Of a stretch of DNA of 64,000 bases, positions 30,868 through 63,791 are shown in pieces. The notes beneath the pieces are model-generated. The model was not told the DNA's origin and made no database searches. It worked only from the letters and a program-made list of their open reading frames with translations. Source of the stretch: Panopea generosa (Eukaryota > Mollusca > Bivalvia > Adapedonta > Hiatellidae); the NCBI GenBank assembly GCA_029582155.1, contig CM055908.1:20933406-20997405 (forward strand), given 5' to 3'. Numbering within the stretch: the first letter of the stretch is position 1; every line of letters starts with the position of its first letter. The translations under genes and the position numbers were made by a program.

Positions 30868-31453
30868 CTATTGTGTGCATTGTTTCTTGTGATAATATAC
30901 AGATGCTCTATGAATGAACTGTTTTCCACATCTGTTGCACTCGTATTGTTTAGTTTTCCCGTGGATACTTGTTACGTGCTGTACAAGGTACCGCCTCTCC
31001 TTGAATCTCTTTCCACATTCATTACATACACAGTGTGTTAAGGGCTTGCCACAGTGACGAAGGTGTTCATCCAGGTGAATGAACGACTTTGTACAATTCT
31101 CACATTGCTTCTTGCCTTCGTGGCTTTTTGCATGTTTTTTCAAACTTGCTGTAGACGCAAATGTCTTTTCGCAGCGTTCACAAATCTTTTTCTTTCCAGG
31201 ATTGTGGAGAATATTATGCTTTTGCAAGGATGATTTTCTTGTAAAGCACTTGCCACAGTATTGACACATATAGCTGGGATTGCACATGTTGTGGGCTTTC
31301 ACGTGTATATTCATGATGTCTTTCCTGACAAAACGTTTTTTACAAATAGAACACTCATGGGGCCTCTCTGGTGCATGTTGTTTTGCATGCGCTGACAATG
31401 TTTTCTTTGACTTGAAGGTCTTCCCACATTCCCGACATAAGAGTCTATCAATT
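30868..31453 (-). CDS. C2H2 zinc-finger exon A (seven fingers, terminal exon)
   Basis: It follows an acceptor (CATTTCAG at 31,454-31,461) and starts in phase 2 (A|ATT GAT AGA). Seven consecutive finger units are visible: CRECGKTF...HAKQH, CSICKKRF...HVKAH, CQYCGKCF...HNILH, CERCEKTF...HAKSH, a divergent CENCTKSF...HLRHC, CNECGKRF...HVTSIH, and a final C2HC unit CNRCGKQF...HKKQC. It ends at a stop codon. No methionine precedes the first finger, so an upstream exon is required. C2H2 proteins usually bind DNA in the nucleus; the target is unknown. All ligands of the canonical fingers are intact, so it looks functional. Confidence 0.88.
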
Positions 31454-31960
31454 CTGAAATGAGTGGAAAACAGAGAGTTTAACACAGTCAGGTATTAATA
31501 ATAACAACACTTACAATAATACTTGTGATAATAAAATGATGATACCAATATAGATTTATTAAATGAGAACAAGAGAACTAAACTAGAAAATTCAATCTAC
31601 CATGAAGCCATTTAAAACAAAAATATAAAGAATGCATGGTTCAGCGGTAGAGATTGAACCCACGATCTTCCCCCACAGCGATCTTCCCCACGGCATATAC
31701 TTAGTACTTGTTATACACAGGAATATATCGAGCGTAATGTGTACAAATTGTTACACTTGTTTCACAATCAAGGAAAAACAAATGAGTATAAACAAACACA
31801 CACATATAATGCTTACTGCAACATATAACACTTACTTAAACCTATAACATTTACTGAAACATATACATTTACAGAAAATAATTAAATGTATTATTACAGA
31901 TCAGTGATCAAATGCCCACAATACTGTCCTAAATATACGTTGATTTTTATTCTGTTATAA

Positions 31961-32839
31961 TTTCAATACTGTGAGATGCCATAGAGACACAGAGATGTTG
32001 TAGAGATGTCACAAAGATATACAAGATCCATCATATAGAAGTTAATTATGACAGGGGTTTACCCTTCAATGCCACAGAGACACAGAGATGTCATAGAGGT
32101 AACACAATGATATACAAGATACATCTATAAAAGTTATATGTGACCGAGGTGTCATAGAGATGCCACAAAGATATACAAGATACATCATATAAAAGTTATA
32201 TGTGACCAGGATTTACACTTCAATGCCATAGAGACACAAAGATGTCATAGAGATGCCACAAAGATATACAAGATACATCATATAGAAGTTATATGTGACC
32301 AGGATTTACACTTCAATGCCATAGAGACACAGAGATGTCATAGAGATGCCACAAAGATATACAAGATACATCATACAGAAGTTATATGTGACCGGGATTT
32401 ACACTTCAATGCCATAGAGACACAGAGATGTCATAGAGATGCCACAAAGATATACAAGATACATCATATAGAAGTTATATGTGACCGGGGTTTACACTTC
32501 AATGTCATAGCGACACGGAGATGTCACAAAGATATACAAGATCCATCATACAGAAGTTATATGTGACTAGGATTTACACTTCAATGTCATAGAGACACAG
32601 AGATGTCATAGAGATGTCACAAAGATATACAAGATCCATCATACAGAAGTTATATGTGACTGGGATTTACACTTCAATGCCATAGAGACACAGAGATGTC
32701 ATAGAGATGCCACAAAGATATACAAGATCCATCATACAGAAGTTATATATGACTGGGATTTACACTTCAATGCCATAGAGACACAGAGATGTTATAGAGA
32801 TGTCACAAAGATATACAAGATCCATCATATAGAAGTTAT
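31961..32839. repeat. 93-bp tandem repeat, about nine copies
   Basis: The unit contains TTCAATGCCATAGAGACACA, GAGATGTCATAGAGATGCCA and AAGATATACAAGATACATCA. Units near 32,140 and 32,510 are shortened. The pattern resumes briefly at 32,980-33,010 after about 140 unrelated bases, so something was inserted near the right end. It lies between zinc-finger exons A and B. Confidence 0.92.
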
Positions 32840-33471
32840 GAAAGTAAAGTGTTTGTTTATTATAGTGTCACCCCTATTGAAAGGGTCAGCCACACGTGGC
32901 TTATGAGACACCTTTATGTTGTGCACAGTTACTTCCCGAAAGTTATCGATGCTACTGAAGCGTCAGGCTGTTAGATGTTAATATATATGACTGGGGTTTA
33001 CACTTCATTGAACAACAAAATTAATCTGCATCAACTAATCACACAATATTTTCCAATATAAATGAAAAATAAGAAAAATATTAGTTTGAAATTTTAAATT
33101 TTAAGTATTAAATTCTAATTGCATGGGTTTATGCACGTGTAAACTTTGTTGAATCATGCACAAACTTTGCATATACATATAGTTTTTAATGTATTAACAT
33201 TTTACAAAGTCAACACATGTATTTAATCATAGAAAAAATAAATGAATTTATAACAATTATAAAATGTCCTCTGTTGGAAAGTAAGCAACATACTAACTTG
33301 GTTACATTCTAATTCCAATATTTCGGCCCAATGGGGCAGATTGGAAGATTGAAATTGATGAAAATTATTTCTTGATAAGTTTCATCAGTGTCAGGGTCAG
33401 GATTAATCCAGTCATGAGGTGTAGTGTCATAGTGTATTTGATCCTTGATAAATACCCATTAGATTGAAATA

Positions 33472-33640
33472 CAGTCAAACCTGTCTTAAGCAGCCAGTCA
33501 AGGGAAAGAGCAAAGGAGACAGATAGTTGCTTAATGCAGGTTAATTTAATCTGAAAGCATAGAAATGGGAAATAGAAAACATAGTTGTTTAAGACAGGTG
33601 GCTGCTTAATAGAGGCGACTGCTTACACAGGTTTTACTAT
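33472..33640. mobile_element. Short TIR element (TA-flanked MITE)
   Basis: The left end CAGTCAAACCTGTCTTAAGC mirrors the right end CTGCTTACACAGGTTTTACT, with TA on each side. Internal phrases on 'GCTGCTTAATAGAGG' repeat the theme. It has no coding capacity. Confidence 0.7.
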
Positions 33641-33762
33641 ATTGGTATTAGAGTGTAACCAAATTAATATAAAATGAATTTGATCGTGTAAAACATACAA
33701 GACTGATTTTTTACCGTTTATTCTTTAAAATAAAACAGCATCATGCATGTGTCTTTGATAAC

Positions 33763-34463
33763 TTATATTTGGTCAAACGGCTTGGCCAGATTTCTACAGC
33801 AGTTTCCTAGTTGGTGAATTTGGAGGTTGCTCAAATAACAAAATTTATGTCCACATATTCGGCAAACAAAAGGTTTCTGACCAGTATGTTTGGCAACATG
33901 ACCCTTTAGTGCCGCTTTCACAGAAAATCTTGCATCACATAAGTCACATGTGAATTTGCATATTTTTTTATGTATACTTGTAATGTGTTTACTCAAGTTC
34001 CATTTAGTAGTAAATGTTTTCCCACACTCTGGGCATAGAGACTTGTCACCCTCGTGGGATTGCATATGCCTGTCATAATTATATATAGCCCTTTACTTCA
34101 TAAAGACGCCTTTGGACACCTCTAATATGGACGCCTTTGGACACCTCTAATATAGAAGGCTTTTCAATTATTGGGTGAATTATGTTTATATTAACTGACA
34201 GAGTGGAAAACGATGCAGGAAGTGTTCAGATTGCTCATTACAAGCAATATGAACTCTTCCTGCACTGTTTCCCAAGGCCTTCTTGATTGGTGTGGGAAAA
34301 TGTGTATCTATGGAGTAAAGGGTTAACATGATATGCCTTGTTGCACACTTGGCATACATAATGCGCAGATCTGTGGCTCCGAATGTGCCGCGATAGTGCT
34401 GACTGTGATTTATAACATTTGTCGCATACAGTGCACCGAAATTCTGCGTCAGTCTTCATATTC
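33763..34463 (-). pseudogene. C2H2 zinc-finger exon B, split by a MITE
   Basis: The acceptor is at 34,464-34,466 (TTGCAG|GAATATGAAG) and the phase is 2 (G|AAT ATG). The first part reads MKTDAEFRCTVCDKCYKSQS...HIRSH and then the start of a second finger, YVCQVCNKAYHVN. There a 234-bp TTAA-type MITE (34,089-34,322) interrupts. The other half of that finger continues as NYDRHMQSHEGDKSLCPECG and three further fingers: CPECGKTF...HITSIH, CDLCDARF...HVAKH, and a C2HC unit CRICGHKF...HQLGNC. It stops at 33,763. Without the MITE there would be five fingers. As printed, translation stops inside the MITE. Confidence 0.8.
34089..34322. mobile_element. TTAA-type MITE (copy 2), inserted in a zinc-finger codon run
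   Basis: Same family as 9,398-9,629. The left end is CCCTTTACTTCATAAAGACG and the right end CTATGGAGTAAAGGG, followed by TTAA. The left flank reads ATAG instead of TTAA, so the duplication is imperfect. The hairpin made of GAACTCTTCCTGCACTGTTT and its partial complement is retained. Confidence 0.85.
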
Positions 34464-34548
34464 CTGCAAGTAAAAAATGCAATTTGATATTAAACTGAAT
34501 GGAATATGATTTCAACAGCCAAAACAACATCAAAACAAGTACATTGTG

Positions 34549-34740
34549 TCAATATTGTGCCGAACATCGCTTGGTCATTTCTATAACTCTTTCAAATGTA
34601 GGTGGAAATGGCTGACCAACATTTCGACAGCATTGTTTTAGCATAATTATATATACAACATCTTTTTCTTTGCTTTGGCATGATGTCTTTTTTTGAAGAT
34701 CTGCTTTTTTGACGTGCCCAATCATTTTCAAAGACTAAGA
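34549..34740 (-). pseudogene. Possible relic of a zinc-finger 3' end
   Basis: A short frame ends LKQCCRNVGQPFPP, which resembles the end of exon B (LGNCCRNLAKPF). Upstream it has a loose finger-like HVKKADLQKK and SCQSKEKD. It may be a degenerate duplicate of the last finger of exon B. The similarity is short and could be chance. Confidence 0.35.
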
Positions 34741-36899
34741 ATTATAGAATTATTTGAGGGCTGCAGCAAAAACGAATCAAACTCACGTGAATGTGCTCTC
34801 AGTTGAAGACCTAACAGTCAAGCAGATTGTTTCGAATGCTAAAACAAACATGTTAAGAAGTGGGAAAATGAATGAGAGACAATAATTATCTGTAAGCTGC
34901 TTATTTTACAGAAACAATACCATCCTTGATAACAAGATGGAACTTTAGACCTGCAAACTTAACACAACTCGGCAAGTTACTTTGTGTTTATATTCTTTCC
35001 CTTTGTAGACTATTGCCTAAATGCCTAACAATGACACCAGTATCGCTTGTCCGTGTTATAATCAGGAACACTACAAAGTTTGTTAAAAAGTATTAAATAA
35101 TATTAAATAATATAGACGAGAGCGAACCAAAAACAGATATATCGCCGTTAATCTGAAATATCTATGAGACAATCAAGAGACAGTCAATTTTATCCTATCC
35201 ATGAAACAAACAAGGATTTTGTGTTTAAATTGCAATGACAAAACTAATAAATAAAACTGTTTATTTTTCCGAAAACAAACAGCTACTAAATAGATGTCAA
35301 AACGATGCAAAATGATAACTGTAATGAAACTTGTATATACTGTATATTAACAAAATTCTCACCTAACAAAGCTCTACAAACATCAGACACATTATCATTT
35401 TACAATAAACATAACTAAAAAATTTAGCTTTAACCTTTTTAATTGAATTTTATTATTTTATTTATTTATTTTTTTTTTATTATTTGATAACATCAATGAA
35501 ATTATAACAGTAATGTTATGCCTGTTACATGTTCTCCAAATCTTAATGAATTCAATATTATCCATTGTAATTTTGTTTTGTGTTCACTTTGGAAACTGGG
35601 TAAAACTGAAAGACTATATGTAGTACATAGTCGTGCAGTAAACATGGCATATTAATTGTGTAAATTAATTTCAAAACCATTTAACAAAATTGTTTCAAAT
35701 GTGGATTACCATTTTCATATTAAGTTGAACATGTTATACTTTATTGTATTTATAACATAAACAAACGGGATAAATTATGGCAAAAGCTAGATGTGAGGTA
35801 TTGTTCAATACATACTAACAAATGTTGCTGACTGGCGGTCATTTCTGTTCTTTTTGTCATCATGAAGTAATTGAAAGTAAACTGTTGGTGACATTTGTAT
35901 GACATAAATGTGTATTAAGTGTGCATTAGTGTGCAGATATACCGCATTATAGGACGTGTATTTCCATACTTCATGTTTTTGTTAAGCTAAAATTTCATTT
36001 GTGAAAATAGTGAGTCAAGTGACAGGGGGAAATACCACTCCCATCGCAGATGTCAACACTGCTACTTGTTATCATGTTTTACATGTGATTTCAACACTAG
36101 TTAATAGACACCATGCACGTGTCATTTGATGTATACATCTCTATGCCTTACAGCTCAGGTCATTGTGCCCTTTTTGTACTACTTCTTACAAATGTGATAC
36201 TTTTAAAACTGTGTATACAAGTTATATAAAAGAGAACAAAAATGCAAAATTAAAGGTTTTGCTTTATTGATAAAACAATATAAAAATAATAAATTGCAAA
36301 ATTTAAATCATCATTAATTGAAGAGATTCTTCAATGTTAACCACATACAATCAAATTCAAGATAAACATTAAAACAACTTTGGCAATCATATAAAGACAT
36401 AAACAACCCCAGACATAACTTAAGTATTGTGATAGAAGAGACCAATGTGTTATGTGAAGTGGAAGAGACCAATGTGTTATGTGAATCTTATCCAGTCACA
36501 TCTTTAACCTAAACATGCTAGTTTGACATCAACATGATTCATACCCACTGGTGTCAATTCTGATACTCTCCTTCCATCATAAATTGAGAGTATCAGAATG
36601 GATCATACATGGTTGACCTTCTGAATCTAAATCCTTACATGTTGAAAACAAAAAAATGTTGGAATTTTATGAAAATACTTATTTTTTAAACAAAAAAAGG
36701 TATTGTACTGGTTTTAAAAGAAAAACATTTCAAGAACACTTCATAGGAATACAAATTTTAAGTAGAAAGTGAAAGAAGTCAGTTATCCATGTGTGGCGTA
36801 AATTTTATATTTAAAAAAGTTTTTCTTATTTCTTACTTTAAAAACGGGCTAAAAATTAGAAAATGACGATACAAAAATAACAGTAACCGTAAAAAAATT
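34741..36899. other. Intergenic/intronic, no gene recognised
   Basis: AT-rich. A short hairpin lies at 36,557-36,599 (14-bp perfect stem ATTCTGATACTCTC with a 15-base loop), and a doubled phrase GAGACCAATGTGTTATGTGA at about 36,439 and 36,469. Nothing else is supported. Confidence 0.5.
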
Positions 36900-38040
36900 A
36901 TTCATTTCCTTAAATGCAGACTGTATTTCCTGAACTGTTTGACAATTTTCCATTTGGCTTAAAACATAATTCTTGGGAAAAGTTTCTTTCATTGACTTTA
37001 CTGACATGAACAAATTCTTCAAGTGACAACTCTACATTTACCATTTGCATTCTTTCCTTGCCATTTTGTAATTTCACTCTCTTCCATCGCTGAAACTTCA
37101 TATTTTCTTGAGCAATTTTAACTAGCATGTTATTTAAGCTGTACTGGTACATTCTTGTACATGTCAACAAAGGGATCTGGACTGGTAGAGGAGCACACAT
37201 TCATGTTCTTCAGCACCATAAGCATGAAACTCATGTTTTGATGTTAACACAAATACACACACTTCTTGATGTAAATTTACTAAAGTCATTTCTTTTGGTC
37301 TTAGGCTGCAGAATGTTGCCTTTAAAATTTCATAAACCGACTCTGAAACAAACTTCAGATAAAGGTTGTCCATGTAATCATTCAATATCCTCTTTTGCTT
37401 CTTCACAAACTATCACACAATATACTTTGTCTGGCAGTACACAAGAGTTGTCATCTCTGTTGAGAAAGTTCTTTACATCACATTTACCTTGCTCAGCTTT
37501 GTATCTAAGTATGTGTTTCTTGTCTGTTACTTTTCAACACTTTGCTAATCTTTCTATCAATGTCATTTTCTCTAAATATTTTTTCATACTATACATATAT
37601 TTCTTTACTTTATCACTTTACCGCTTACCATTTTTTTAAAGCATGCCATTACTTTAGGGCTTTGAGACATCATGTTTCTGACCTCTTCATTAACACATTC
37701 AGCATAAAAAAATTATATGTTTATACTTTCAGGAACATCTTTAGGTCTTAATCCGGTCTTCTGCAACAAAGGATCTGTCTTGCTTTTTGGGGTAAAAGCT
37801 TTCTTTTATTTATCGGCTTCAAAGTGGTGCATGCGTTTTTTTTGCACTTTTAAGCTTTCTACATAACGTTTCATTCTAGTCTTCCAGTGTTTCCATGCAT
37901 TTTTCTTTTCAATGCACATGTCTGTCCTTTCTTTGAATCTTTCCATTCTACTTAGAATGAAATGGCATCTTCACTGTGATTAAGTCTGCCTCTCTAGTTT
38001 TACTGCTAACAACTTGTTCATTGCATCAATTTTGAGTTTC
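36900..38040 (-). pseudogene. Decayed multi-copy element protein (unnamed family)
   Basis: The minus strand can be read through several frames as fragments of one protein. In order: MERFKERTDMCIEKKNAWKH...MKRYVESLKVQKKRMHHFEA, LRPKDVPESIN, KNFLNRDDNSCVLPDKVYCV, KKQKRILNDYMDNLYLKFVS, then ILKATFCSLRPKEMTLVN. The R-D-D-x-S...P-D/G-K block and the F-C-x-L-R-P block recall a widespread, unnamed protein carried in many copies by aquatic invertebrate and fish genomes. Stops and frameshifts separate all parts, so it is a relic. The family assignment is from memory and unverified. Confidence 0.5.
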
Positions 38041-38049
38041 AACTGTATT

Positions 38050-39055
38050 AAATATCAAACGATAAGGTTCTGGGTCTTACATTTGACATGTCCTCATGTC
38101 ATGTTGATCAATTAATAAATTGAGCCAAATGTTTTTGAAATTCATCCATGTATGACAAAGTTACAGACTAGACACCAAATATCAAACAACTTGAAAGTGT
38201 GACCGTGACCTTTGAGGAAAGGTTCTTGATCTTACACATGACATGGTGTCATGTCTTGTTGATCAATTGAACCAAGTGTTTCTGTAATCTATCTATGTAT
38301 GACAAAGTTACAGACCAAACACGAAATCTCACACAGACTCAAAGTGATGTCAAACAAACTCAAAGTGTGACTCTTTGAGGTATGGGTGTGGGTCTTACGC
38401 ACGACACGTCATGTCATGCTGATGAAGTGTTTTTTACATTTATCCATAGGTGACAAAGTTACATACCTGACATGAAACCTTTAACAGACAGAAAGTGGTG
38501 TCAAACAAAGATTAAGTGTGACCTTTGAAGTGAGAATCTGGGTGTTACTTGCTACAAAACGTCATGTTATGTTGATAATTTGTAGCAGATATCTATAAAA
38601 TCCATCTATGCATGACAAAGTTATAGGACAAATACGAAATCTCACAAACTCAAAGTGTGACCTTGACCTTTGAGGTACAGGTGTTGGTCTTATGCGGGAC
38701 ACATCAATGTGTCATGTTGATGAATTGATCGTGTTTTTGAAATTTATCCATAGGTGACAAAGTTATATACCGGACACAAAATCTCAAACAGACTAAAAGT
38801 GTTGTTAAAGTTTAAATGTGACATTGACCTTTGAAGTGGGAGCCTGTGTGTTATGCGCGACACATCTGGCATGTTATGTTGATCATTTGTAGCAAGAATT
38901 TATAAAATCCTTTATCCATTACAAAGTTACAGGCCAGACACGAAATCTCCCACAGACTCAAAGTGTTGTCAAACAAATTCAAAGCATGACCTCGACCTTT
39001 GAGGTATGGGTGTGGTTTTACGCGTGACACAAACACCACTTGATGAGGAGACACC
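38050..39055. repeat. ~155-bp degenerate tandem repeat, about six units
   Basis: Each unit has TGACCTTTGAGGTATGGGTG-like text, then CATGTCATGTTGATCAATTG, CCATGTATGACAAAGTTACA and AACAGACTCAAAGTG. The start phrase recurs near 38,207, 38,372, 38,520, 38,668, 38,826 and 38,994. Related single segments lie at 18.2 kb and 62.8 kb. Confidence 0.75.
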
Positions 39056-39745
39056 ATGACTTAAACATACATATTTCCATCATGTGCACTGGCAGAATAT
39101 TTATCAGCAATAAATAAACATGCAAATTTATGAAAAAAGTATTCAAAATGACTCACTTTTATTCTACTAGATCTATTACACACATATTATTACTCATCTA
39201 ATTTATGTAGTTTTGCAGACGATCACTTTGAGAAATTATGACTTGTGTTTGTGAAGAATGTTTACTTCTGGTTGCAGTCTGAAGAACGAACCCAGCCTTC
39301 CCGACTGGGTCCATTAAATAGCAATTTTGGAAAAGCCATATCTGAGCACATTGATTTATGTTCTGGGATATAGGAATATGTATTAAACACTAATGAAAAA
39401 GCAGGAAATTCTATGCCTGTCCCACAATTCATAGCAATTGAACGCTTACTGAACTGTGACGTTATCCAAACTTTCAGTTGAGGCAACTGACAAATCAACA
39501 TGCTCAAATGTGGTTTTACGAACAATGCTATTTAACAGACCCAATCAGGTCCCAATCAGTCACATGTAACTGATGCGAACTCAGACAAAATATACAATAC
39601 AAAACATGTGACAAGCAATGTTTGTAAATGATGTGGACAAAATAGACAAAGTTGTTAAATTTACAGATCTATCAATTAGTACAAGATTTGGAGCTCAGGG
39701 CCAAACAATGCTTCTATGAAGATATAGGGAAAATCATTTCCATTT
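39056..39745. other. Nothing recognised
   Basis: The minus strand has an open frame of 87 codons (39,262-39,525) without family resemblance that I can name. I do not call it a gene. Confidence 0.4.
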
Positions 39746-40150
39746 AAAAAAAAAAAAAAATTTTTATTATGATAACATGTGTCCCCTAATTGAACCCTTG
39801 GGGCGGGGTCATTTTTAACCATAGGGACACCATTTGAACAAATCTAACAGAACTATAATTGGTTATCAATACTACATAGACATTTTGAAAATCTGTTGGG
39901 CCGTTCATGAGAAGAAGATTTTTTTAAGTTTTGGACTATTTTTAGTAATGGTGGCCAACTTGAATTTCAAATCGAAAAAAAAAAATCTTTTTTATAGTCT
40001 CCTATGCAATAGAAACATCCATGTGAAGTTTCAGTTTAATTGGCCTAGTGGTTTCAGAGAAAGTGCTGCTAACACACTTTGGAGATGACAGATGACGGAA
40101 AACGGGCCATTGCATAAGCACTTCTGGCCTTTGGCAAGTAGAGCTAAAAA
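39746..40150 (+). repeat. Dispersed non-coding repeat
   Basis: It runs from GATAACATGTGTCCCCTAAT through ATAGGGACACCATTTGAACA and GAAGTTTCAGTTTAATTGGC to CTGGCCTTTGGCAAGTAGAG, a style of bivalve interspersed repeat. No second full copy is present in the window. A closing phrase similar to 'CAAGTAGAGC' occurs in the inverted arms at about 19,795. Confidence 0.5.
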
Positions 40151-40509
40151 ACTGATATGCTTCTTTGATACATAATAACATGATTTTATTAATTAATTAC
40201 TACCTGATAACACATGACCTTCTATGACCTTCCACAATGGAAATAAGAGAGAAGCCCTGTTCTCTTGTTAGTGTTATCCTGGTATTGATGAACATTTCAT
40301 GATCTATGTGTGTATGGTTGTGATAATTTCTATAATATGATTGTTGTTGTTATAATGACCATGCATCATGCTGTTGCCTTGCTTTGTATGGACATGCATT
40401 ACTTAAATAAATCTATTTATATAATTACTGATAAATATGTTAAAATGTGTTTAATCTCACAATTTCATGATTGATATCCTAATCTTTTAGCTTATAATAT
40501 CTCTTATAT

Positions 40510-40752
40510 AACTGGACTCCTCCATGGGCGAGTGGTCACAGACGCTGTCTTACCTCCCACCATTGATGACAAGAGTTTGAGCCCAGCTGCAGCATTTATG
40601 TGACAAAGTTTGTCTACATTTACTTATCATGGAAGGACGGTGGTTATCAACAGTTTCATTCTTAGATCTTCCTCCACTAATAAAACTGGATATGTCATAT
40701 ATAACTGATGTTGAAAATGGCTTTAAACCCCATTAAAAACACCAAAAAAACT
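40510..40752 (+). mobile_element. tRNA-derived SINE, family 2 (copy 1)
   Basis: The head is leucine/serine-tRNA-like (CTCCATGGGCGAGTGGTCAC; AGAGTTTGAGCCC as B box). The body has ACTTATCATGGAAGGACGGT and ATGTCATATATAACTGATGT and ends TGGCTTTAAACCCCATTAAA. It is diverged from copy 2 at 41.37 kb. Confidence 0.8.
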
Positions 40753-41370
40753 TGATCCTGATAGTTTTTTTAGGGAGAAAAATGATGAAATTTAAGTGTC
40801 TATTTTGTTTTCCCCAAGAAGATTTATCAGAAAGAAAACTAAATCATGTAAATGTATTATCATAATGTATTTAATTTAAACGTTTTCAGGTAAATAACAA
40901 AAGGCTAAACATTTTTTGTTGTTAATCTACGAATTTTCCCAAAAAGTATTGGATGAATGTTAAAAAAAAAATTGATTTTTTTTGAAAAAATAAAAATATA
41001 TATATATTTTATAGTTGAAACATAGAAGTAAAATGTTCTCATTTTCCATTTATTAGATTTCATTGTGTACACCCTGAGTTTGTATTTCAATATCATTATC
41101 AGAATAATAAAAACAACGGTGAATTCCTTTAACCAACAAAAAAAAGAAAAAGGTCACGCCCAATTAATGTAAGTAATCAACATGCAAAAATCTTGTGGAG
41201 AGGGAATTTTACTTACACAAGTTTGTCTTGCATTGGCGAACAGATGTCATCAAATAATACGATGACAACTATTCTGACTACTACAAATCAATATATTTTC
41301 TTGGGTGCGACAAGAAATCTAAAACGACTTGGAGTTAAAGAAATCCAACCTTCCAGCAAATATAATGAGA
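40753..41370. other. Nothing recognised
   Basis: AT-rich sequence with homopolymer runs and a short (TA)n near 40,995. No exon or defined repeat. Confidence 0.5.
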
Positions 41371-42172: not shown

Positions 42173-42210
42173 ATACTATAATTCAGTTGATGGTGTTACA
42201 ATCATGATCA

Positions 42211-42685
42211 TTATATAATTGCACCAGCATGTTTGTAACTCCTATGTTTGGAGAGGCTGCCCCTCCACTTGTACTTGACACCACACCCCGGTATGTCACA
42301 CACAAACTGGTACTGTTGATCATGGAACGCTCTCCTGTGATCCTCCATGCCATCCTTCCGGTTGAAGACAAGTCGACATACTGGACACTGGTACCCGTCG
42401 TTATGTTCCGAATGTATCTTTAGGTGACGTCGGAGGTCTGGCATTCTGCTGAATTCCTTTGAGCACACCGTACAGCATATACCAGTACCACCATGTTTAG
42501 ACCTCATGTGTGCTGAAAGGTGGCTGTTATCTACAAACACTTGATCACACCAGCTACATTCAAATTTAAGTTTTTCTCTTTCGTGTTTTGTTATTGTGTG
42601 TTTACGGAACCCGCTGGAAGTTTTAAAAAGATCTCCGCAGATAGAACAGACGTGTTTGTGGAAGGGCATTTTCTTGAATTGCAAT
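42211..42685 (-). CDS. C2H2 zinc-finger exon C (five fingers, terminal exon)
   Basis: The acceptor is CGTTTCAG at 42,686-42,693 and the phase is 2 (A|TTG CAA TTC AAG). An in-frame ATG follows after five codons (MPFHKHVCSICG). Five fingers: CSICGDLF...HTITKH, CSWCDQVF...HMRSKH, CTVCSKEF...HLKIH, CPVCRLVF...HRRAFH, and CDIPGCGVKY...HRSYKH with the longer CxxxxC spacing. It ends AGAII and a stop. All ligands are intact. The 43-bp satellite begins about 155 bases upstream, in the presumed intron. Confidence 0.88.
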
Positions 42686-52600: not shown

Positions 52601-52619
52601 CATTCTTTATAACACATGC

Positions 52620-54625
52620 TCTACTTTTAATTAACTGGACACGGGTTGTCAATCAAACTAGTCGATTATCCAATCAATAATCAATATTTTTTCAAATACT
52701 GCCTTTTTCCTTAGACAAGCAAATGGTCACTAAGTAAACACTTCATTGTATTATTTTGACAAACAATGCCAGTAGGCAGAGCTTCACGTCAATTTTGCCA
52801 GATAACTAGAATGAGATAAAATCAATGACCCGTATAACAGATTCACAGCAGCAGGTGCTTCTTGCAGTAGCATGTAAACACCTATTGTTCTCAATAATGT
52901 GACCGTCATCTCCGCAAATATAGCGTTGTGCGCACCTGCAACAGTGTGACCATTAATACTGGTTTACGCTTCTACTTATAATTATTTTGTTATGGCAGAA
53001 TATATTGATCAGCAGGCTTTAATATTATTTTTTTATGGCTACTTTTTATATGTCACCCATAAAAGTAATGTTTGTTCTAAATAATCGTTTAGCATATATC
53101 GAAATTAAATAAATAAAACATAATTAAACTAAGTTCCAGAAATGGAGGCCTCAGGGAAAATCCACCAAAAGCAAACATATTAAATTGGACTTTTGGTACA
53201 TGTAATGATTCCTGGGTGATTTAAAAATAGGCAGTGCAGTATACATTGTGCGTCTGACCCTTGAAAACAGACATAGTTTCTGTTAATTGTTAATGTTCAT
53301 TAAGATCAATTAAATGTTGACCTTGTATAAAAGATCGATGTTAATAAGTGAATCTTGAGAACGAGAGAAATTGTGTCTTAACTTATTGCTGTTGAGTTTA
53401 TATTTTAGTCATTCCAAACTTATTCCAATTGTTTATGTTTTTCAGTTTGTTGACAATGAGAAAGGTGAAATCTAACCTTAACCTCCACAGAAAAAAGGCC
53501 AAGTCTTCAAAAATTGAAATACGCTGACCTGAAACATTGGATATACACAACTTATTAACAGTAAAAAAACAATTCACAATTTCTCCTAAAAAAAAGCCAG
53601 AAAAGAAATAATTCTCGTTTAAGTCACCATCAACATTTAGGTCACCTTTGTACCGAGATTCTCAATTACCAAAAAAGTTAAAGCAGAATTCTGTATACTC
53701 TTTATTTGCTAGAAACAACTCGAATGAAATTCGACCAAATGAAGATTCAGCCAATGCTTTTGACATATGCCCTCAATTCCATGAGAATTGTACAAAGGTA
53801 CAAAGAGAAACTGGACAGGAATCTGACGTTCAGACTTCACATTCTTAAGATGGAACCAAACTGAAGACGGAAACGTTGAAAATAAAACTCTTGATACATC
53901 TGAATTCGAATGTAAAAGAGACAAACTGCCTTTTGTATAACAGATATTCCAAAATATATGAATATTTAATTGAAAGAAATATTTTTACAACTGTTTATTT
54001 AACATCCTTTGTGCCTGAAAGTGACAGCAGTATTGTAAACATATTATAATAAAAAGGAAGTTTATCTCCATGTTTAAGTAATGTTATGAAACATAAAGAA
54101 ACGTAATGGAATACTCATTGAAGTGGTCAAAATTAATATTGTTGAGTAAAACAGAAGTTGAACCATTCCATCTCTTATATATTCGTTGCAGCAGTTTACT
54201 AATTAAAAACAAACGATGTTATTCGAAACTCTTTATAATCTTTTAATGTCAAATATGATTTCTATAAAATATAATCACTGGCGCAGAAAATAACAATAAA
54301 ATCATAAATATAATCACATGACCGCATAATCACCTATATATTGCATAAGTTAAATATCATAACTAAAAAAAACAACTGAACACAAAGGCATTCCAAAGCT
54401 CTGAAGTGAACACTAATCTCGTAACTAACACAAAAATATCAGCTCGGTATAAACATAACGTTGCACATTTTAATAATAACGGTGTGCAAATGTTTAAATA
54501 TTAAGGTCCCCTTCACTCAGTTACATAGAGCATGAAGTTTATCTTGCATTCAACAACAAACCAGAATTGTCAGATATCTTTACATTGCGGTATACCGGTA
54601 CATCACTATTGCTAAACAAACATAT
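52620..54625. other. No gene recognised; one possible coding fragment
   Basis: Plus-strand frame 53,648-53,848 (67 codons, LYRDSQLPKKLKQNSVYSLF then ARNNSNEIRPNEDSANAF) has a protein-like composition and is preceded in frame by basic text (SPKKKPEKK) after a stop. I cannot name it. A ~45-base phrase at 53,033-53,080 recurs inverted at 61,165-61,200. Confidence 0.3.
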
Positions 54626-54631
54626 CCTTAA

Positions 54632-54848
54632 CTCTTTTCTCCATAGATACGCGTTTTTCTGCACCAATCACAGAAGGCCTTTGAAAACAGCGCAGGAAGA
54701 GTTCAGATTGTAACGAGCAATCTGAACTCTTCCTGCACTGTTTTCCACTCTGTCAGTTAATATAAACATAAGCCACTCATTGCTGATGCATGGTGAATTA
54801 TTGCTTTCACTTTGGAAGAGTCCAAGAAAATGCTTATGGAGCAAAGGG
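54632..54848. mobile_element. TTAA-flanked MITE (piggyBac-like), copy 3
   Basis: A 217-bp element between TTAA at 54,628-54,631 and 54,849-54,852. The ends are CTCTTTTCTCCATAGATACG and TATGGAGCAAAGGG. It shares the internal CGCAGGAAGAGTTCAGATTG hairpin with copies 1 and 2 but has a different right-hand segment in place of the GGCGTCTATATTAG run. Confidence 0.85.
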
Positions 54849-55319
54849 TTAATTCAATTTATAGTTGTAGAATAGTATCTTAATGATTGTTTAGAGGAAT
54901 TATGAATAGTTTTAAATAAGTCGAGATGTCTGTGTTATTTGAAACCCAGAATAAATGGGAAATACATCATTCAAATTCGGTCTTATTTTTACATATTTTA
55001 TCAATAGGTTTGATGAACGTTGATATTAATAATCTGTGCAGTTATTTACATTTTTTCATACTTTTCTGATAAGGTTATCTTAAGAAATATTGCAAATTAG
55101 ATAATGGAATGGGTTTCGACTTATTCTCTCAATTGTAACATTGTTATAAGGCTATTCACGGAAACAACATAATTAATTGTCAGAAGTCATAATGTTTCTT
55201 TGTCACCTATTTAGATGAATGTAATAAATAAATAGAAAATGCTGCACATCGCATAACAATCATTAATATGCAAACTAAAGCACAAAAACATCAAATCTGA
55301 TGCACAATGATTGATATCA

Positions 55320-56335
55320 TAATGAATACAAAATGATCTAGATCAAAATTATAAAAACAGAATGATTGAGATCAAAATGATCTAGATCAAAATTATAAAA
55401 ACAGAATGATTGAGATCAAAATGATCTAGATCAAAATTATAAAAACAAAATGATTTAGATCAAAATTATAAAACATAAAATGATTGAGATCAAAGTTAAA
55501 ACAAAATGATCAAAATTATAAAAACAAATGATCTAGATCGAAATTATAAAAACAAATGATCTAGATCAAAATTATAAAAACAAAATGATTTAGATCAAAA
55601 TTATAAAACATAAAATGATTGAGATCAAAGTTAAAACAAAATGATCAAAATTATAAAAACAAATGATCTAGATCGAAATTATAAAAACAAATGATCTAGA
55701 TCAAAATTATAAAAACAAAATGATTTAGATCAAAATTATAAAACATAGAATGATTGAGACCAAAGTTAAAACAAAATGATCAAAATTATAAAAACAAATG
55801 ATCTAGATCGAAATTATAAAAACAAATGATCTAGATCAAAATTATAAAAACAAATGATCTAGATCAAAATTATAAAAACAAATGATCTAGATCAAAATTA
55901 TAAAAACAAAATGATCTAGATCAAAATTATAATAACAGAATTATTAAGATCAAAATGATCTAGATAAAAATTATAAAAACAGAATGATTGAGATCAGAAT
56001 GATTGAGATCAGAATACTTGAGATCAAAATGATCTAGATCAAAATTATAAAAACAAAATGATCTAAATCAAAATTATAAAAACAAAATGATCTAGATCAA
56101 AATTATAAAACATAGAATGATTGAGACCAAAGTTAAAACAAAATGATCTAGATCAAAATTATAAAAACAAAATGATCTAGATCATTATTATAATAACAAA
56201 ATGATCTAGATCAAAATTATAAAATATAAAATGATTGATATCAAAATTCAAACAAAATTATCTAGATCAAAGTTATAAAAAAACAGAATGATTGAGATCA
56301 AAATTAAAACAGAATGGTTCAAATCAAAGCTTATC
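55320..56335. repeat. GATC-rich ~29-bp repeat with ~137-bp higher-order units
   Basis: The base unit is AAAATGATCTAGATCAAAAT then TATAAAAAC. TGATCTAGATCA is a perfect 12-base palindrome. Variants ATGATTGAGATCAAAGTT and ATGATTTAGATCAAAATT combine into a longer block repeated three times at about 55,441, 55,578 and 55,715. The array ends about 90 bases before the stop codon of zinc-finger exon D. Confidence 0.93.
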
Positions 56336-56428
56336 CTCAATACAATAACTGAGACCTTCATAAAAGCGGCATTTGAAAAGTTTTAATTGCCTCTTATGCT
56401 TTAGGCATCATTTGGCAGACACATGTCG

Positions 56429-56702
56429 CTAAGCCTTTCTGTGTAATTTCTTGTGGCGGCTTAAATTTCGCCGGTATCTGTACACTCTTCCACATTCATC
56501 ACATTTTTGTTTTTTCTCACCACTGTGTTTATTAAGATGTTCTTGCAGGTCATTCCTGCCTTCTACTGTTATGCCACAAATATCACATTTGAAGCCGTTT
56601 TTATCTTCTCGTTTTACGTGACGTTTTAGATCGGCCTGAGTAGCAAATGACTTCTGGCAATTAACACAAACAAAGGCTCCTACTTCTCCATGCACGGAAC
56701 AT
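56429..56702 (-). CDS. C2H2 zinc-finger exon D (terminal exon, downstream of E)
   Basis: The acceptor is ACTATCAG at 56,703-56,710, phase 2 (A|TGT TCC GTG CAT). Joined to exon E it completes a finger (...LTRHRCSVH) and continues GEVGAFVCVNCQKSF...HVKRED, where the last zinc histidine seems lost. Two good fingers follow: CDICGITV...HLNKH and CDECGRVY...HKKLH. It ends HRKA and a stop. The phase match with exon E is exact. Confidence 0.87.
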
Positions 56703-57394
56703 CTGATAGTAAATAAAAGTAAAGTACATCAGCAATGACACACAGCTTGTATGTCTGAACTGATATAAACTATCTTCTTAAAGCAACAAATCGTAGGTGT
56801 TTACTATCAAGGGTAAAAACAGTATGATACAATGGAATTAGAATCTAAATGTTTCGATCAAAATAATTTATGATTTCATTCAGGATATATTTTTTAAAAT
56901 ATATAGAAGTATTCTCCTTTCGTTATTTACATACGTTATGATCTGACCAAGGTTCTGCTGTCATTTTTACCTTTATCGCAACAGACATACTTACAGTGCT
57001 CCAGATAAGCACTATTTGGTGGTATTTAAGCATTGACATTTCTGAATAATACATTGAAAATTAAATTAAGGTGTAAAATAAGCATTAGTTATTCTCAGTT
57101 CCAGTGTTGATTAGTCAGTTAATTTTTACCCTTAACATTTTGAAAATAAGCATTGCATTCAAATTTAAATGGTAAACAACTCATTTGAAGAAAACCTTAT
57201 CTTGAGCACTGTTAACTCTAGAACCACCCGAGATATAAGGAAGATTTTGGCACCAAATTGCTGAGAATACTTAAATCTTAGGAACAAACGTTTCGGGTGT
57301 AGTTAATTTGCAAAAATTCCACGAACAACACAATCTGATTATTTTCTTTGTTTGCTTTTTATCTGAAAAAAATTAATTAAATTTAAGAAGTTAC

Positions 57395-57544
57395 CTGTGG
57401 CGCGTTAAGTTTGCCATGCTGTGGAAAACCTTCCCACAGCAATTGTAGCGGCCCTGTCCCATGTGTATCTTCTCATGTTGTCGTAGAGCTGATGCATTTA
57501 AAAACCCTTTGCCGCAGAATCTGCACATCGACTGATCCATATTT
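57395..57544 (-). CDS. C2H2 zinc-finger exon E (upstream of D)
   Basis: The acceptor is TATTTTCAG just above 57,544, phase 2 (A|AAT ATG GAT CAG). The donor is CACAG|GTAACTTC at 57,394, phase 2. It encodes NMDQSMCRFCGKGF...HEKIH, then GRYNCCGKVF...LTRH. The second finger has adjacent cysteines (CC) where CxxC is usual. Its last histidine comes from exon D. The ATG directly after the acceptor could be a true start after a 5' UTR intron, or an internal Met of a longer spliced protein. Confidence 0.85.
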
Positions 57545-59360
57545 CTGAAAATAGGAGTTGAAGGTGTAAGTAGGTCAAGACCAACACAAATTCAGTCGTT
57601 GGAAATATTAATTCCTTGTGGGCAAAAAGAAATTTAAACACAATAGCCTAATAGGCCATTTTTTTTAATTGAATAATAGAAGTATGTATCGTATTTATTA
57701 GCACGCATATTTTAACTATTGAAAATAGTTACCAGAAACAAAGCTGGAAGATACGTCACGCTGACGTAATATGGGTCATCTACGATTGTAATTGACATAA
57801 AATAAAATACATACAAGTAAACGCACAACCTCCGATATCGACACGCATATTTTAAGTAATGAAACGGATATTAATACAGTTACCGTATTTTTAAATTAAT
57901 CTATAGATCTACACTAAATTAAAGGTTTCAATTTTAAATTCAACTTTAAAGTTTTCAATTTTAAATTTAACTTTCAATATATATAATAGCTAAATTAAAT
58001 GTGCATACAAAGTAGAAACTATCGTATAACAAATATATCTAGCTAAGTAAGGCATGTCTACGTTTTAGGTACAGGTAAATGCTATGCAGTTCAGATGTAA
58101 TTACGTTATTATCAATTTCATTATCAAGTTATTTCCCCCCCCCCCCCCCCCACCCCACACACACACAAAATCAAAGACTAAAATTAGTATGCAACGAAAA
58201 AACAATGATTTTACAGTGCTTGGCCGTCAGGTGAGTGGTACGGAACCTTTTCTCGTGAAATGGCTGTATTATATCTTCGGTCTGAGTCCCAGCACCCAGG
58301 CGAGTCGCTGCTATGACGTACTCAAACTGCACGAGGTAACTGAATTTTACTAATGTATCACCCAGTTAGCCGTAATACTATGTAGGCCTACTCCGCTATT
58401 GATAGAAAAACATCAATATGGAAAGGAAAAATTGTACACATACAGTATATGTCATTGGGCTGCATATCTTTTGAAGACACCCACATATTGGGTGTGGATT
58501 GGGTGTCGAAGTACTCAAACAAAATCAGAGTGTGGAAGTTCTCATTTTAGTTTCATTCCACGTTTCTACTGAAATATCCTCAAATGTTCTTTAAGACCCG
58601 AAAATATATTATTTTTTCATAACAGTACAGGTAATAAATATCCAATTTCGCTTTATTTCTCTTTATTTCATGAAAATACACCCAAAATCTACTTCTTTTT
58701 CACTTGCGTGTGTAAGTACTTCTACAATTTTTTAAACTTTTTCCGTTTTCCAGAGAAAAGTATGCTAGGTGTAAAATATCTAATACTACCGTTGTTATGT
58801 TTACTGTTGGACGGGTACGGTGCTCTTTATCCCGTGTCAATTGTTTCAATATTAAAAAAGTTACAAGACATTTCTTACCTGAAGCAGCGATGTTTTTGGT
58901 GTGGTCAGCTCATTTGTGTACAGTTTTGATGACGTTGCAAAGTTTTTTTCCCGACCGTGATTGTGGATGATAATAATATATTGCGTGATTTAAGTTTTAT
59001 AAATGGCCTAAGCAGTGATATTGAGATCGTAATTTGTAAGAATAATTATTTTTTTAGCTGACAATATCAATTGCTACTAGGTGGTGATGTTTAATGCAAT
59101 ATATTATCACCACTTCTAGTATTATCAGACCTATGCTAGTGCCCTATGCTCTATAGGTTTGTGGTAAATAGTCCAAATGCTGTGCCGTCATATGTGCTGG
59201 GTTAGGCTATGCAGTGGTGTAGTTCTTTGTGACATTCATTCCCATTTATCAGTGTTCGGATTAAAATTATTATGTATTAAATTTTGTATTATAATATTTC
59301 CGATATTTCTTTCAAGAACACGATGCATATGTACCTGTACTACTACTGTAATACTACAGT
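57545..59360. other. Intergenic/intronic; poly-C run, no gene recognised
   Basis: It contains a homopolymer C run (58,137-58,152) next to a short CA run. No exon with recognisable product was found. Confidence 0.5.
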
Positions 59361-59361
59361 T

Positions 59362-59731
59362 GATGTATATAAGCAGTTCATTCAGCATCTCTGTGATAAA
59401 CATAGTTTAGATGTCTTAAAATACAAATAACTGGAGTTTGACTGTCATACGGGAAAAGCATGAAAAGCAGGATATCGAACTAAAACATCTGAATCTGTTA
59501 TCACATGCATTACCTGTGGATGATACTAATCTATTGCATGTTACATTCATCGGAGAACATTATCCTGAAAATGTGTTAACATCTGTAGTAGTGGAAGACC
59601 ATCTATTATCAGACATACATATACTACGTCAGGAAATAGAAAATAACTCAAAATCCAAAAGTGAACCTATTCCCTCAATTTCAGAAGATGAAGATGAAAA
59701 TATTCCTGCAGTCATAGAAACATATATATAA
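59362..59731 (+). pseudogene. Unrecognised coding-like fragment, one frameshift
   Basis: Plus strand, opposite to its zinc-finger neighbours. A first part reads VYKQFIQHLCDKHSLDVLKY. After what looks like one extra base near 59,426 it continues NWSLTVIREKHEKQDIELKH, LNLLSHALPVDDTNLLHVTF, and an acidic end SISEDEDENIPAVIETYI with a stop at 59,731. An acceptor-like TACTACAG lies just upstream. I do not recognise the family. The composition looks like real protein, so it may be an exon or a relic of a mobile-element gene. Confidence 0.4.
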
Positions 59732-59926
59732 AAAAATGGTGTTCGCTAGTGGTTAGTTAACAATTTCCAGTGGAAAACATATGCTATCTGTTGTTCCTTG
59801 AGTTTGTTGAATGTTTTCCAAATCATCTAAGACCTATATGAGATCTGTCACCGTAGGCATGCATACAAGCCTTATGTCTTAATGAAACAAAATAGAAATC
59901 TAGGATATCTCCGTTTTGTCTTGTGA

Positions 59927-60620
59927 TCAGATTTTATTAAATGTGCATTTTTTCGCGCGACGTTTAAATGAGAATATGTATGAATATTTTTTTCCGCAAG
60001 CACAATAAAATGGTTTGTTCATGTGCTGTGCTGACTGGTGCTTCTTAAGCTGGTCCTTTCTTGTGAAATCCATCTGACTAATTGTACAGGTTACGCTTAC
60101 ATGGCCAGCGCATATTCTCTCATGCTCATTCCTTTTGTATTTATTACTATAGCTGTGTCCACACTGTGCGCACTCATATGGTTTCAATCCAGAATGGCTA
60201 TTAACATGTGCTTCATAGCTTGCTTTAATGACAAACTGTTTTTTATAATTTCCATGAGGGCACTTCATCACCTTGCTTTTATCTTTGGCATCACCATGCA
60301 CTATTGCATGCCTGTCTAAATTGTATTTCGATGAAAAACTTTTTCAACAGGAAACGCATAAATGTGGCTGATGTTTAGCATCTTTGTGTGACACTAACTT
60401 TTCTTCAGTTTCAAAAAACAGTGTACAGGCTCTACATTGGTATTTGTCAGTATGAACTTTTAAATGTCTAATTAAAGCACATTTTGAATTATAAGCTTTT
60501 TCACAAATACCACATGAGAAAGAGTCGTGTACTACTTCTTCTACTGATACATCTACTGACCCGTCCAAAAATGATCCATCCATCTGCTCAATAACTGAGT
60601 TATCCATGTTTATAACTAAT
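59927..60620 (-). pseudogene. C2H2 zinc-finger exon F with in-frame stop and lost ligands
   Basis: The acceptor is GTTTGCAG, phase 2 (A|TTA GTT ATA AAC ATG GAT). The start would be MDNSVIEQMDGSFLDGSVDV. Fingers: CGICEKAY...HLKVH; CRACTLFF...HKDAKH; CVSC-stop-KSFSSKYNLDRH...H, where TGA at 60,344-60,346 replaces the expected glycine; CPHGNYKKQF...HVNSH, with the second cysteine lost; CAQCGHSY; CTISQMDF...HQSAQH, with the second cysteine lost; and a last CACGKKY unit lacking the first histidine. The frame stays open on both sides of the TGA, down to the stop at 59,927. This is a decaying copy, though readthrough or a truncated two-finger product is possible. Confidence 0.8.
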
Positions 60621-61833
60621 CTGCAAACAGACGAAATACAACAACTTAGTGCATGACAATATGTTCTGACAGAGAGATGTCTATTTTTCCAGTAAAATAA
60701 TTAAACATGTTTACATCAACACTTTTACTTGAAATGCATAATTGTATCTCCGCTATGTTCTCTACATACAAAAGATTGCAAACACTATAGGTATACGTTT
60801 GTTATAATACAACCTTAGGCACAATGCATGTTGCGATAATGAGAGCGCAAAATTCTATCTCTTACATAAGGTACTAAATCCAAGGCATACGATTGGTTCA
60901 AATTATCTTCCATGACATTTCAGCAATAAAAACAATAAAAGTTAATTGCAATTGATAGCGTCAGATTAAAAAGCCCCATTATTTTTACAAATTACGAGCT
61001 TGATATCACTGCTAAGGCCATTTATAAAACTAAAATCATAAAAGACACAGCACTGCTTTTCCTCGCCACACAAATAATTTTAAATTGTCCATGCTGCCAT
61101 ACTTTTTTCCAAATGTTCATAACTCTTTGAATATTGTATTTTTTGGTAAAAATTTGGATTGTTCAGAGCAAACATTACTTTTATGGGCGACATATAAAAA
61201 GTAGCCCTAAATTGAATAGTTAATAACATAAATTGTGTTTCACATTTTTTTCAACAAATTGTCACTTTTAACTCGCCATAACATACTAAATATATGTCAG
61301 TTTTAAACAGGAATCACATGACATGTTATTCATTCATGCTACTTTCTGTAGAAACAAAGATCTTTACAATGTTTTGCAGAATTGATGGTGCGATTCAACA
61401 ATACTAACCCCAATCCAGATCGCGGCACAACTACCGGAAAACGGTTTCTCCATAATCGGCTGCTTAACTCGTAACCCGTTTTCGGGTGTGATATAGGCCA
61501 CTGATAAAATGCAGTAAATACGATAGAAGACAATTCTTATATTTTAGTAAAGTGACAAATACAAATTAAGCAGAACTTTACAGACAATATCAGAACAGAC
61601 AAAACAAGACCTCCATGTTGGAGAGCAGCACAACTCAGAGACCAGCACATCTGGACTATTTGCACTTTGTTGGAGAACAGCATTAATATTTATAATAATT
61701 ATGTAACATCAGAACAATAGGCATATCAATCGAGCCTTCTTTAGTATCAGTGAAATAATTGATACATGTGTGTGCAAGTATGAATATGGTTGAGTGTACA
61801 TTATGTAACTGGCAAACTTTTGATTGTTTATTT
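60621..61833. other. No gene recognised
   Basis: AT-rich. It contains the inverted partner (61,165-61,200, ACATTACTTTTATGGGCGAC) of the phrase at 53.05 kb. Nothing else is supported. Confidence 0.5.
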
Positions 61834-62060
61834 TGACTAATTAGCATCATTTTAATGCCATCCAGGGCTATCACAGTCCGAGACGATCAGTTAACCTAAC
61901 CAATCTTTCCTGGGATCCTGGAAAGTTAACTAGTACTTGAGCACACTTATCTCAGCAATAAGATGAATGACAATGAGACACAATGTTGTATATCAATCGA
62001 CACGGATACTTTGGCTGGGATACAATATCACAATGACTGAAAAATTGTTGAAAGCAACGT
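61834..62060 (-). mobile_element. tRNA-derived SINE, family 1 (minus strand)
   Basis: On the plus strand it reads from the tail (TTAGCATCATTTTAATGCCA) through GACGATCAGTTAACCTAACC, TCCTGGGATCCTGG and ACAATGTTGTATATCAATCG. The tRNA-like head is eroded near 62,030. Confidence 0.8.
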
Positions 62061-62739
62061 TAATCACAATACAACAGCAACAATTTCTTACTAGGAACAT
62101 GTGTGTTGTGTCATTGGGCATTTGCATATAGTGATTCTTGTCTGGAAGACAGAGTGTTACTTGTATAAGTGTAATGTTTCACTATTGATGTTAATACATT
62201 CAAATTAATTAATGATGCATTACAATCATGTCTATAAATGTAACAGGATGAGAAAATATACAGTAAGTCCGGTACTTGAACTTGAAACCTTACCCTAACA
62301 GGGTGACTGTTCTAGACTGAGCGTCACTGCTATTGTTAAATTTTTCTCCTTACAGACTTCGTTCACATCATAGCATTATTTTCAAAGAGGACAAAAAATA
62401 TGTCAAGTATAAATGTTTTTATTTTTTAAACTTATAGATCCAAGAAATATTCAAAACAAGTATGTCAGAAATTGTTAAAACTTGATTTAATATGTGTCAA
62501 ATTCCTATCAGTCTATAATATTAAGAAATGTTGAACGTTTTTACACCTATCATGCAGAAGTAACTAAATTTTATCTAAATGTCTTGGCAAAACTAAATTT
62601 GCATTAACTTTCGACATTTAAAATAATCTTTTGCTGTAAAATTTGTTTTTCTACACATCTTTTCAATAGTAAAAAATATTTATTGATGTCTAACTAGAAA
62701 TGTCACTGGTAGTAAGTGTTTCATGCCCCACAAGTTGTC

Positions 62740-63050
62740 TAAGCAAAATTAATGTCATGTCATGTTGATCAATTGAGCCAAGTGTTTTTGAAATCAATGT
62801 ATGACAAAGATACAGGCCAGCCATGAAATCTCACACAAACACAAAGCGTTGTCAAACAAATTGAAAGAGTGACCTTGACCTTTGGGTTACAGATCTTAAT
62901 CATACATGTCATGTTGATCAATGGAGCCAAGTGTTTTAGAAATGCATCCATGTATGACAAAGTTACAGGCCAGATACAAAGTCTCAAACAGACTCAAAGT
63001 CTTGCCAAACAAACTTCAAGTGTGACCTTGACCTTTCATGGTCACCAGAC
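62740..63050. repeat. Two units of the ~155-bp dispersed/tandem repeat
   Basis: It carries TGTCATGTTGATCAATTGAG, CAATGTATGACAAAGATACA and GAGTGACCTTGACCTTTGGG, then a second round. It is the same family as 38.05-39.06 kb. Confidence 0.75.
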
Positions 63051-63450
63051 TGACAAAATTCAGTTAATGGCTAGGTCGCATGAGTAAAATTGACTACGGG
63101 CGCTGCCATATTGAAATGTCACTACCACGTGTTAAAAACATTTGCATTCGCCATAGGGAGGTTGCCATTGCTTTTCAAAATAGTGCCTTATGGATTGGGG
63201 TGGTACTTAAACAACTGCATAATCCAAACAGGTGAAATGCTATCTGAAAATGGTGTATGGTTTCAAGTGGTACTACAGATCTGACCAAAGCTGGTCACTC
63301 TGGGCAAAACATTTCTCAGAAACAAAGCTAATAACATCACTCTTTTATTCTATGATGAAATCAAAATTAAGCTTATTTTATGGGATATTAGAACAGCTGA
63401 CTTATTGTTTATTCAACTTTATACACACACCTCACCACAATTGTTCTACG

Positions 63451-63791
63451 TTACTTATGATTATTCATCAGGTGTCTACGAAGGCTTGATCGGCACCAGT
63501 AATGTTTGGAACACGTGTGACAGCTATATCTTTTCTCGCGATTATGTATCCCGCGTATGTGATCCGCAAGCATGTCTTTCCTTCTAAAAGAAACTGTGCA
63601 CAGCTGGCACTGGAAGATGGCAGATGATGATGAGTGTATGCTTCCGTGTCTCTTCAGTGCTGATTTTGTTGTAAATTTAGTTCCACAAATATCGCAGGTT
63701 ATTTTATTTTTGCTATGGTGCGTCATGTTATGTGCCAGTAGTTGGGATTTTTCTATAAACTTTTTCCCACAACACTGATACGGCTGGGACC
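63451..63791 (-). CDS. C2H2 zinc-finger exon G (four fingers, terminal exon)
   Basis: The acceptor is ATATTGCAG just above 63,791. Here the phase differs from the others (GG|TCC CAG CCG). It encodes SQPYQCCGKKF...HNMTH, with adjacent cysteines as in exon E. Three normal fingers follow: CDICGTKF...HGSIH, CQLCTVSF...HIRGIH, CHTCSKHY...HLMNNH. It ends HK and a stop at 63,451. With no start Met before the first finger it needs an upstream exon, which must lie beyond 63,800. Confidence 0.85.

Follow-up and report, generated by a model that had tools for sequence, protein, structure and literature searches.

Are the C2H2 zinc-finger exons that follow each other on one strand of a 64,000-nucleotide stretch of the Panopea generosa genome (C15:20933406-20997405, in the following the window; genome of 1.474 Gb in 39 contigs) alternative 3′ ends of a single gene, or do they belong to a row of separate genes? 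A first-pass annotation of the window had recorded exons A-G (the letters being assigned here in order along it), six of them as C2H2, and had compared their layout to that of Drosophila lola. The analysis reported here suggests that the array is probably a lola-like set of alternative 3′ zinc-finger exons which does without a BTB domain. An extra exon, H, is located right of the window, as is a constant 5′ part (7.4-9.7 kb beyond its end); coordinates above 64000 are extrapolated window coordinates, from which L009 coordinates are obtained by subtracting 64000. The two constant exons and the six 3′ modules (H+G, F, E+D, C, B and A), all on the minus strand, are arranged as follows, a slash marking an exon end.

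73561-73663 (L009:9561-9663), minus strand: constant exon 1, coding part, with the N-terminal motif and a phase-1 donor
71389-72292 (L009:7389-8292), minus strand: constant exon 2, open, with an acidic stretch, two fingers and a phase-2 donor
67668-67774 (L009:3668-3774), minus strand: exon H, phase-2 acceptor, Met 7 nucleotides inside, phase-1 donor
63451-63791, minus strand: exon G, fingers 2-5 of module H+G, phase-1 acceptor, stop TAA
59927-60620, minus strand: module F, phase-2 acceptor, Met 13 nucleotides inside; in-frame TGA at 60344-60346, after which the frame reopens to 59927
57395-57544, minus strand: exon E, phase-2 acceptor, Met 4 nucleotides inside, phase-2 donor GCCACAG/GTAACT
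56429-56702, minus strand: exon D, phase-2 acceptor, remainder of module E+D, stop TAG
42211-42685, minus strand: module C, a single exon of five fingers, weak phase-2 acceptor, Met 16 nucleotides inside, stop TAA
34238-34463, minus strand: module B, first half, phase-2 acceptor, Met 4 nucleotides inside, stop at 34238
33763-34092, minus strand: module B, second half, detached, three more fingers and a stop
30868-31453, minus strand: module A, a single exon of seven fingers, phase-2 acceptor, no Met ahead of finger 1, stop TAG

The placement of the C2H2 exons on the minus strand over 30.8-63.8 kb was confirmed by a finger-pattern scan, in which all recognisable finger series of this interval have that orientation; a stricter pattern gave three plus-strand matches, each antisense to A or B, and a looser one six, none of them within a finger series. 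Right of the window, one further minus-strand finger is found at 67.7 kb and none in the next 196 kb, with a pattern that is not exhaustive and overlooked both constant fingers at 71.4 kb. The first bases of the exons are 31453 (A), 34463 (B), 42685 (C), 56702 (D), 57544 (E), 60620 (F) and 63791 (G). A place as alternative first exon holds for A, B, C, E and F. G has a phase-1 acceptor and continues exon H with its phase-1 donor; E, whose phase-2 acceptor had been recognised, is not terminal, its phase-2 donor joining D, so that D like G is a second exon. Likewise, A and G had been described as lacking a start Met: A indeed has none before its first finger, whereas G is the second exon of H+G. 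Against the Pfam family zf-C2H2 (curated cut-off 25.2 bits) H+G, E+D, C and A score 71-84 bits, and A, C and E+D are 31-35% identical to H+G, with the finger ligands found by pattern throughout except in one finger of E+D. Poly-A signals past the module stops were discarded as evidence, AATAAA being too frequent by chance (1.4 per kb).

The shared exon with a phase-2 donor which had been predicted to the right of the window was found there as exon 2. It ends in EEHVKTH followed by AG/GTTGGT, a phase-2 donor just past the second finger at the boundary of finger and linker, and its frame closes six codons past the donor. The 264 kb that were read contain a single clear match to exon 1 (E 2e-21; next 0.7); exon 2 has in the whole genome, at E<=0.01, one other match, which covers the finger part only and belongs to a different gene, L038 (C15:35.485 Mb). 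Exons 1 and 2 joined by script comprise 335 codons and two bases, from which the computed joins enter the finger frame in 6/6 modules and reach the module end in 4/6. The computed products have 484 (H+G), 476 (E+D), 493 (C) and 530 (A) amino acids, and early stops give 427 for F and 410 for B. A BTB domain, suggested for the shared exon beforehand, did not turn up: Pfam lists none on the constant part, where the best matches are C2H2 fingers (exon 2 alone reaches 22 bits and stays under the cut-off) and the N-terminal motif has no match, and the sole BTB match listed for C15 is situated at 53.9 Mb, far from the array (best 150 of 352 candidates scored). An open reading frame at 74.2-74.4 kb was rejected as N-terminal exon owing to weak splice sites; the homologous motif at 73.6 kb is the better candidate.

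The acceptors of the modules agree in phase with this donor. Between acceptor and first Cys codon the number of bases is 1 mod 3 in 6/6 first exons (A, B, C, E, F and H), which confirms the common phase 2 reported for the first five of them and adds H. Splice sites were scored with rounded position frequencies that were not trained on this genome. The six open stretches that precede the first finger, 576 nucleotides together, contain six acceptor-like sites scoring at least 3.9 as compared to 0.6 expected, the cut-off having been set after the score of the site of A (3.94) was known; in every stretch the highest-scoring site is the acceptor used. Among 18 other zinc-finger open reading frames of this genome, 17 of them evaluable, just one has a site with a score above 3 before the first finger. 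For five acceptors, chance odds near 1 in 81 had been quoted; six acceptors in one preset phase correspond to 1 in 729 if independent, and since the exons are related the true figure is weaker.

A second, paralogous locus on C15, 3.9 Mb from the array, has a different phase. Its N-terminal motif match lies at 24.9165 Mb, and its exon 2 is acidic, devoid of fingers and terminated at C15:24914838 by a phase-0 donor (AAACCA/GTAAGT). About 60 kb downstream, on the same strand, a six-finger exon with a stop (L039) possesses a phase-0 acceptor at C15:24855675. A further 3.3 kb past L039 lies A′ (C15:24851200-24851772), the top relative of A among the matches listed (111.7 bits, followed by relatives on C2 with 100.7 and C19 with 99.3 bits; best 150 of 2613 candidates scored). 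Before A′ was fetched, phase 0 had been stated as the expectation for an exon joined to its own constant part and phase 2 for a mere descendant of A. The acceptor of A′, at C15:24851790, is in phase 0 (score 6.2), and there is no Met ahead of its first finger. A and A′ are both open and identical at 70/192 positions (36%) over all seven fingers. Since the two are homologous and their phases differ, the phase has changed with the locus, and this change is the part that descent leaves unexplained. The acceptor phase would thus seem to follow the local constant donor. L039 was dropped as an independent phase control, since it is part of the second family locus, and was used as a member instead. 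Having no Met before finger 1, A must be preceded by a coding exon. At both loci, stop-bearing exons (L039 at the second; H+G, E+D and C at the first) separate the constant part from the Met-less A-type exon, so that splicing to the latter has to bypass them, unless it starts from an unrecognised exon. In the remaining 38 kb of the second locus no further modules are among the matches listed (150 candidates scored per search).

As judged from these phases and frames, the array may constitute one transcription-factor locus with constant 5′ exons 1 and 2 and a choice of 3′ finger exon. The phase-2 donor of exon 2 would be spliced, mRNA by mRNA, to H+G, E+D, C or A, each of which would supply its own stop, with F and B out of use. 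The predicted products would share the N-terminal part and differ in their finger sets, five fingers being added by H+G, C and E+D each (one of those in E+D incomplete) and seven by A, and would presumably differ in DNA target as well. The residues of the recognition helices at fingers 1, 2 and 4 are alike in H+G, C and L029 (a related exon on C1, see below), while those of E+D and A differ, in a comparison whose pattern failed to catch several fingers; the targets of the former three may therefore overlap. The paralogous C15 locus would be built alike, its donor and its finger exons, of which there are at least two, being in phase 0.

A number of observations weigh against such a set of alternative 3′ exons, beginning with the fact that it has been deduced from genomic DNA. 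The acceptor of C is weak (score 1.99, equalled by 8% of AG sites) and the constant donor modest (2.10, equalled by 3.4% of GT sites). A′ leads the relatives on C2 and C19 by a mere 11-12 bits, the change in phase between A and A′ is one event only, and the second locus was read except for 38 kb. Two module-like copies elsewhere, L029 (C1:34.574 Mb) and L030 (C12:50.411 Mb), have no constant-exon match listed near them, and the changes between these two copies, 11 nonsynonymous and 6 synonymous, do not depart significantly from neutral expectation (P 0.11). Furthermore, two of the six modules, F and B, are disrupted by in-frame stops, and one of the five fingers of E+D is without its last His. 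Finally, in 5/6 modules a Met is found 1-5 codons past the acceptor, as start codons would show. The same applies to L029 and L030 (3 codons) and to L039 (6 codons, 18 nucleotides), and an acceptor precedes the ATG by 5 nucleotides in exon 1 of the constant gene and by 4 in its paralog. Two of eight BTB open reading frames have an acceptor-like site within 20 nucleotides of an in-frame ATG as well (at 14 and 16 nucleotides), a third at 206.

The Met near the acceptor speaks for separate genes, and the first-pass annotation had already seen it as suited to tandem genes, on the grounds of an AATATG at the start of B, E and F; this motif is present in B and E, while F reads AAACATGG, and C also has an in-frame ATG 16 nucleotides inside. 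On this view, H+G would be the sole module tied to the constant exons, and F, E+D, C, B and A would be partial duplicates, each with its own promoter and non-coding 5′ exon and with translation starting at the near-acceptor Met, an arrangement which the acceptors near ATGs in the constant exon 1, its paralog and the two BTB frames, together with the orphan copies on C1 and C12, also favour. However, the distances from acceptor to Met (4, 4, 7, 13 and 16 nucleotides in the modules, 10 in the C1 and C12 copies) are all 1 mod 3, a regularity not required of a non-coding leader; A and A′ lack a Met of this kind; the two loci use different phases, in each case that of their own constant donor; and constant exon 1 has no further clear copy within the array. 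Separate tandem genes are for these reasons considered unlikely. The near-acceptor Met could have been inherited, or modules could also be transcribed from separate promoters, as is the case at mod(mdg4) (PMC12692577). Within 2.5 kb upstream of the modules only matches of 22-30 bases are shared, the best between B and H (30 bases, E 2e-4).

Acceptors located 4-18 nucleotides before ATGs in several exons might also be sites of spliced-leader trans-splicing. Against this, such sites are present in two of the eight BTB frames and one of the 17 evaluable zinc-finger frames, A and A′ offer no ATG for it, and the phase rule is left unexplained, which makes a spliced leader highly improbable.

The broken modules bear on another explanation, that of one ordinary gene composed of the constant exons and H+G, to which the other modules would have been added by 3′ exon duplication and persist as unused, decaying relics. 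F and B look dead, H offers the nearest acceptor, the incomplete finger of E+D fits decay, and dispersed copies of such exons exist, some of them with stops. Contrary to what long neglect would produce, A, C and E+D are open throughout at their 31-35% identity to H+G, with the ligands kept but for that one finger, and A retains 36% identity to A′ across seven fingers, both being open. Relics are hence regarded as less plausible than tandem genes, and the lola-like set of alternative 3′ exons is retained as the preferred reading of the array.

It is chiefly in BTB genes of insects that arrays of alternative 3′ exons with zinc fingers are known. Drosophila lola has common 5′ exons and unique 3′ exons, mostly encoding zinc fingers, with at least 20 isoforms produced by cis- and trans-splicing (PMC1947980). 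The array resembles lola in its constant 5′ exons and alternative zinc-finger 3′ exons, in the present case as read from DNA, but differs in having fewer modules, of five to seven fingers in the readable ones, and in replacing the BTB-containing constant part of lola by a Pfam-less N-terminal motif and two constant fingers. Drosophila mod(mdg4) encodes BTB proteins with mainly FLYWCH 3′ ends (PMC11426971), and its modules also possess separate promoters (PMC12692577). The array is unlike it with respect to both the BTB proteins and the FLYWCH ends. With these loci it shares several stop-bearing DNA-binding 3′ exons in one acceptor phase that matches the constant donor; as no BTB was found, it does not count as a member of their class. 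Among 94 of 909 matching open-access records, judged by title and opening of the abstract, none describes such a locus outside arthropods.

The constant part belongs to a family that is concentrated on C15. A search with the N-terminal motif gave 14 matches at E<=10, seven of them at E<=0.01 and the array locus itself at 0.02; ten of the 14 are on C15, two of these within one open reading frame. Upstream of L038 the motif reads MDSYLLALYVTLEQEIAIRELFTGNGWLLKKYEG, the homologue of MDTGTYLLTLLVTFDQEYAIQRLFTRHGWKYDKKG at 73663-73561 beside exon 2 of the array locus; 18/33 aligned positions are identical, and both are followed by a phase-1 donor. By eye, a motif of about 31 amino acids in exon 1, a phase-1 donor and a subsequent exon with a phase-1 acceptor were found at three loci, namely the array locus, L058/L038 and L059. 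L038, L060 and L061, all on C15, resemble the array locus in the two-finger unit and in a match to the N-terminal motif upstream (at 2.4, about 11 and 2.7 kb, respectively). In contrast to the array locus they have no intron past the second finger, and seven more fingers follow directly in the same exon. In L062 the two-finger unit recurs with the intron placed later.

Finger exons related to the modules are also dispersed through the genome. L029 and L030 are 97% identical five-finger exons akin to H+G; both have a phase-2 acceptor and the upstream flank, and one of them lacks a zinc-ligand His. A dispersed repeat (L031-L037; C8:39948999-39949699 and others) carries a G-like finger exon with a phase-1 acceptor in 7/7 copies; it has at least 51 DNA matches (best 40 of 2668 candidates scored), 19 of which span most of the exon at 83-100% identity, the others being partial or comprising the flanking backbone only. 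A D-like family matches the D half alone, from residue 48/49 on (E/D boundary at 49), in at least 16 places on C6, C7, C8, C9, C10, C11, C12, C13, C14, C18 and C23, with 43-45% identity and a 97-residue open frame, and two more places on C5 match E+D nearly whole at 41%. Stop-bearing relatives of L039 at C7:25540582 (45%) and C8:26435759 (54%) are probably dispersed finger-exon copies. Much of the finger matches listed comes from a very large C2H2 gene cluster on C11, mainly at 37-61 Mb. As the repeats carry a G-like exon together with its acceptor and a D-like exon, they might distribute preformed DNA-binding 3′ exons, which could end up downstream of constant exons and yield new isoforms. 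The wider proposal, that a lola-like system independent of the BTB family exists at two loci or more and is supplied with mobile finger exons, is put forward as a tentative one with a low probability.

The array is flanked on the right by CHMP7 on the minus strand (winged helix, E 1.4e-10) and on the left by minus-strand exons which we take to be SRP72-like from a Pfam match below the cut-off. The plus strand has, between E and F and facing the array, an open frame of 103 codons whose end is acidic (59420-59731), and a fragment at 20006-20701 that seems to resemble a non-LTR reverse transcriptase.

Should the lola-like reading of the array be correct, one gene would give rise to several DNA-binding proteins, and loci of this kind may be broken up by gene predictors into a number of spurious zinc-finger genes. 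Two loci in a single genome would then combine the same array layout with a constant part unrelated to BTB, and the layout would have arisen apart from BTB, so that the needs of this layout, namely one donor phase, modules on the same strand and turnover of dead modules, would become comparable.

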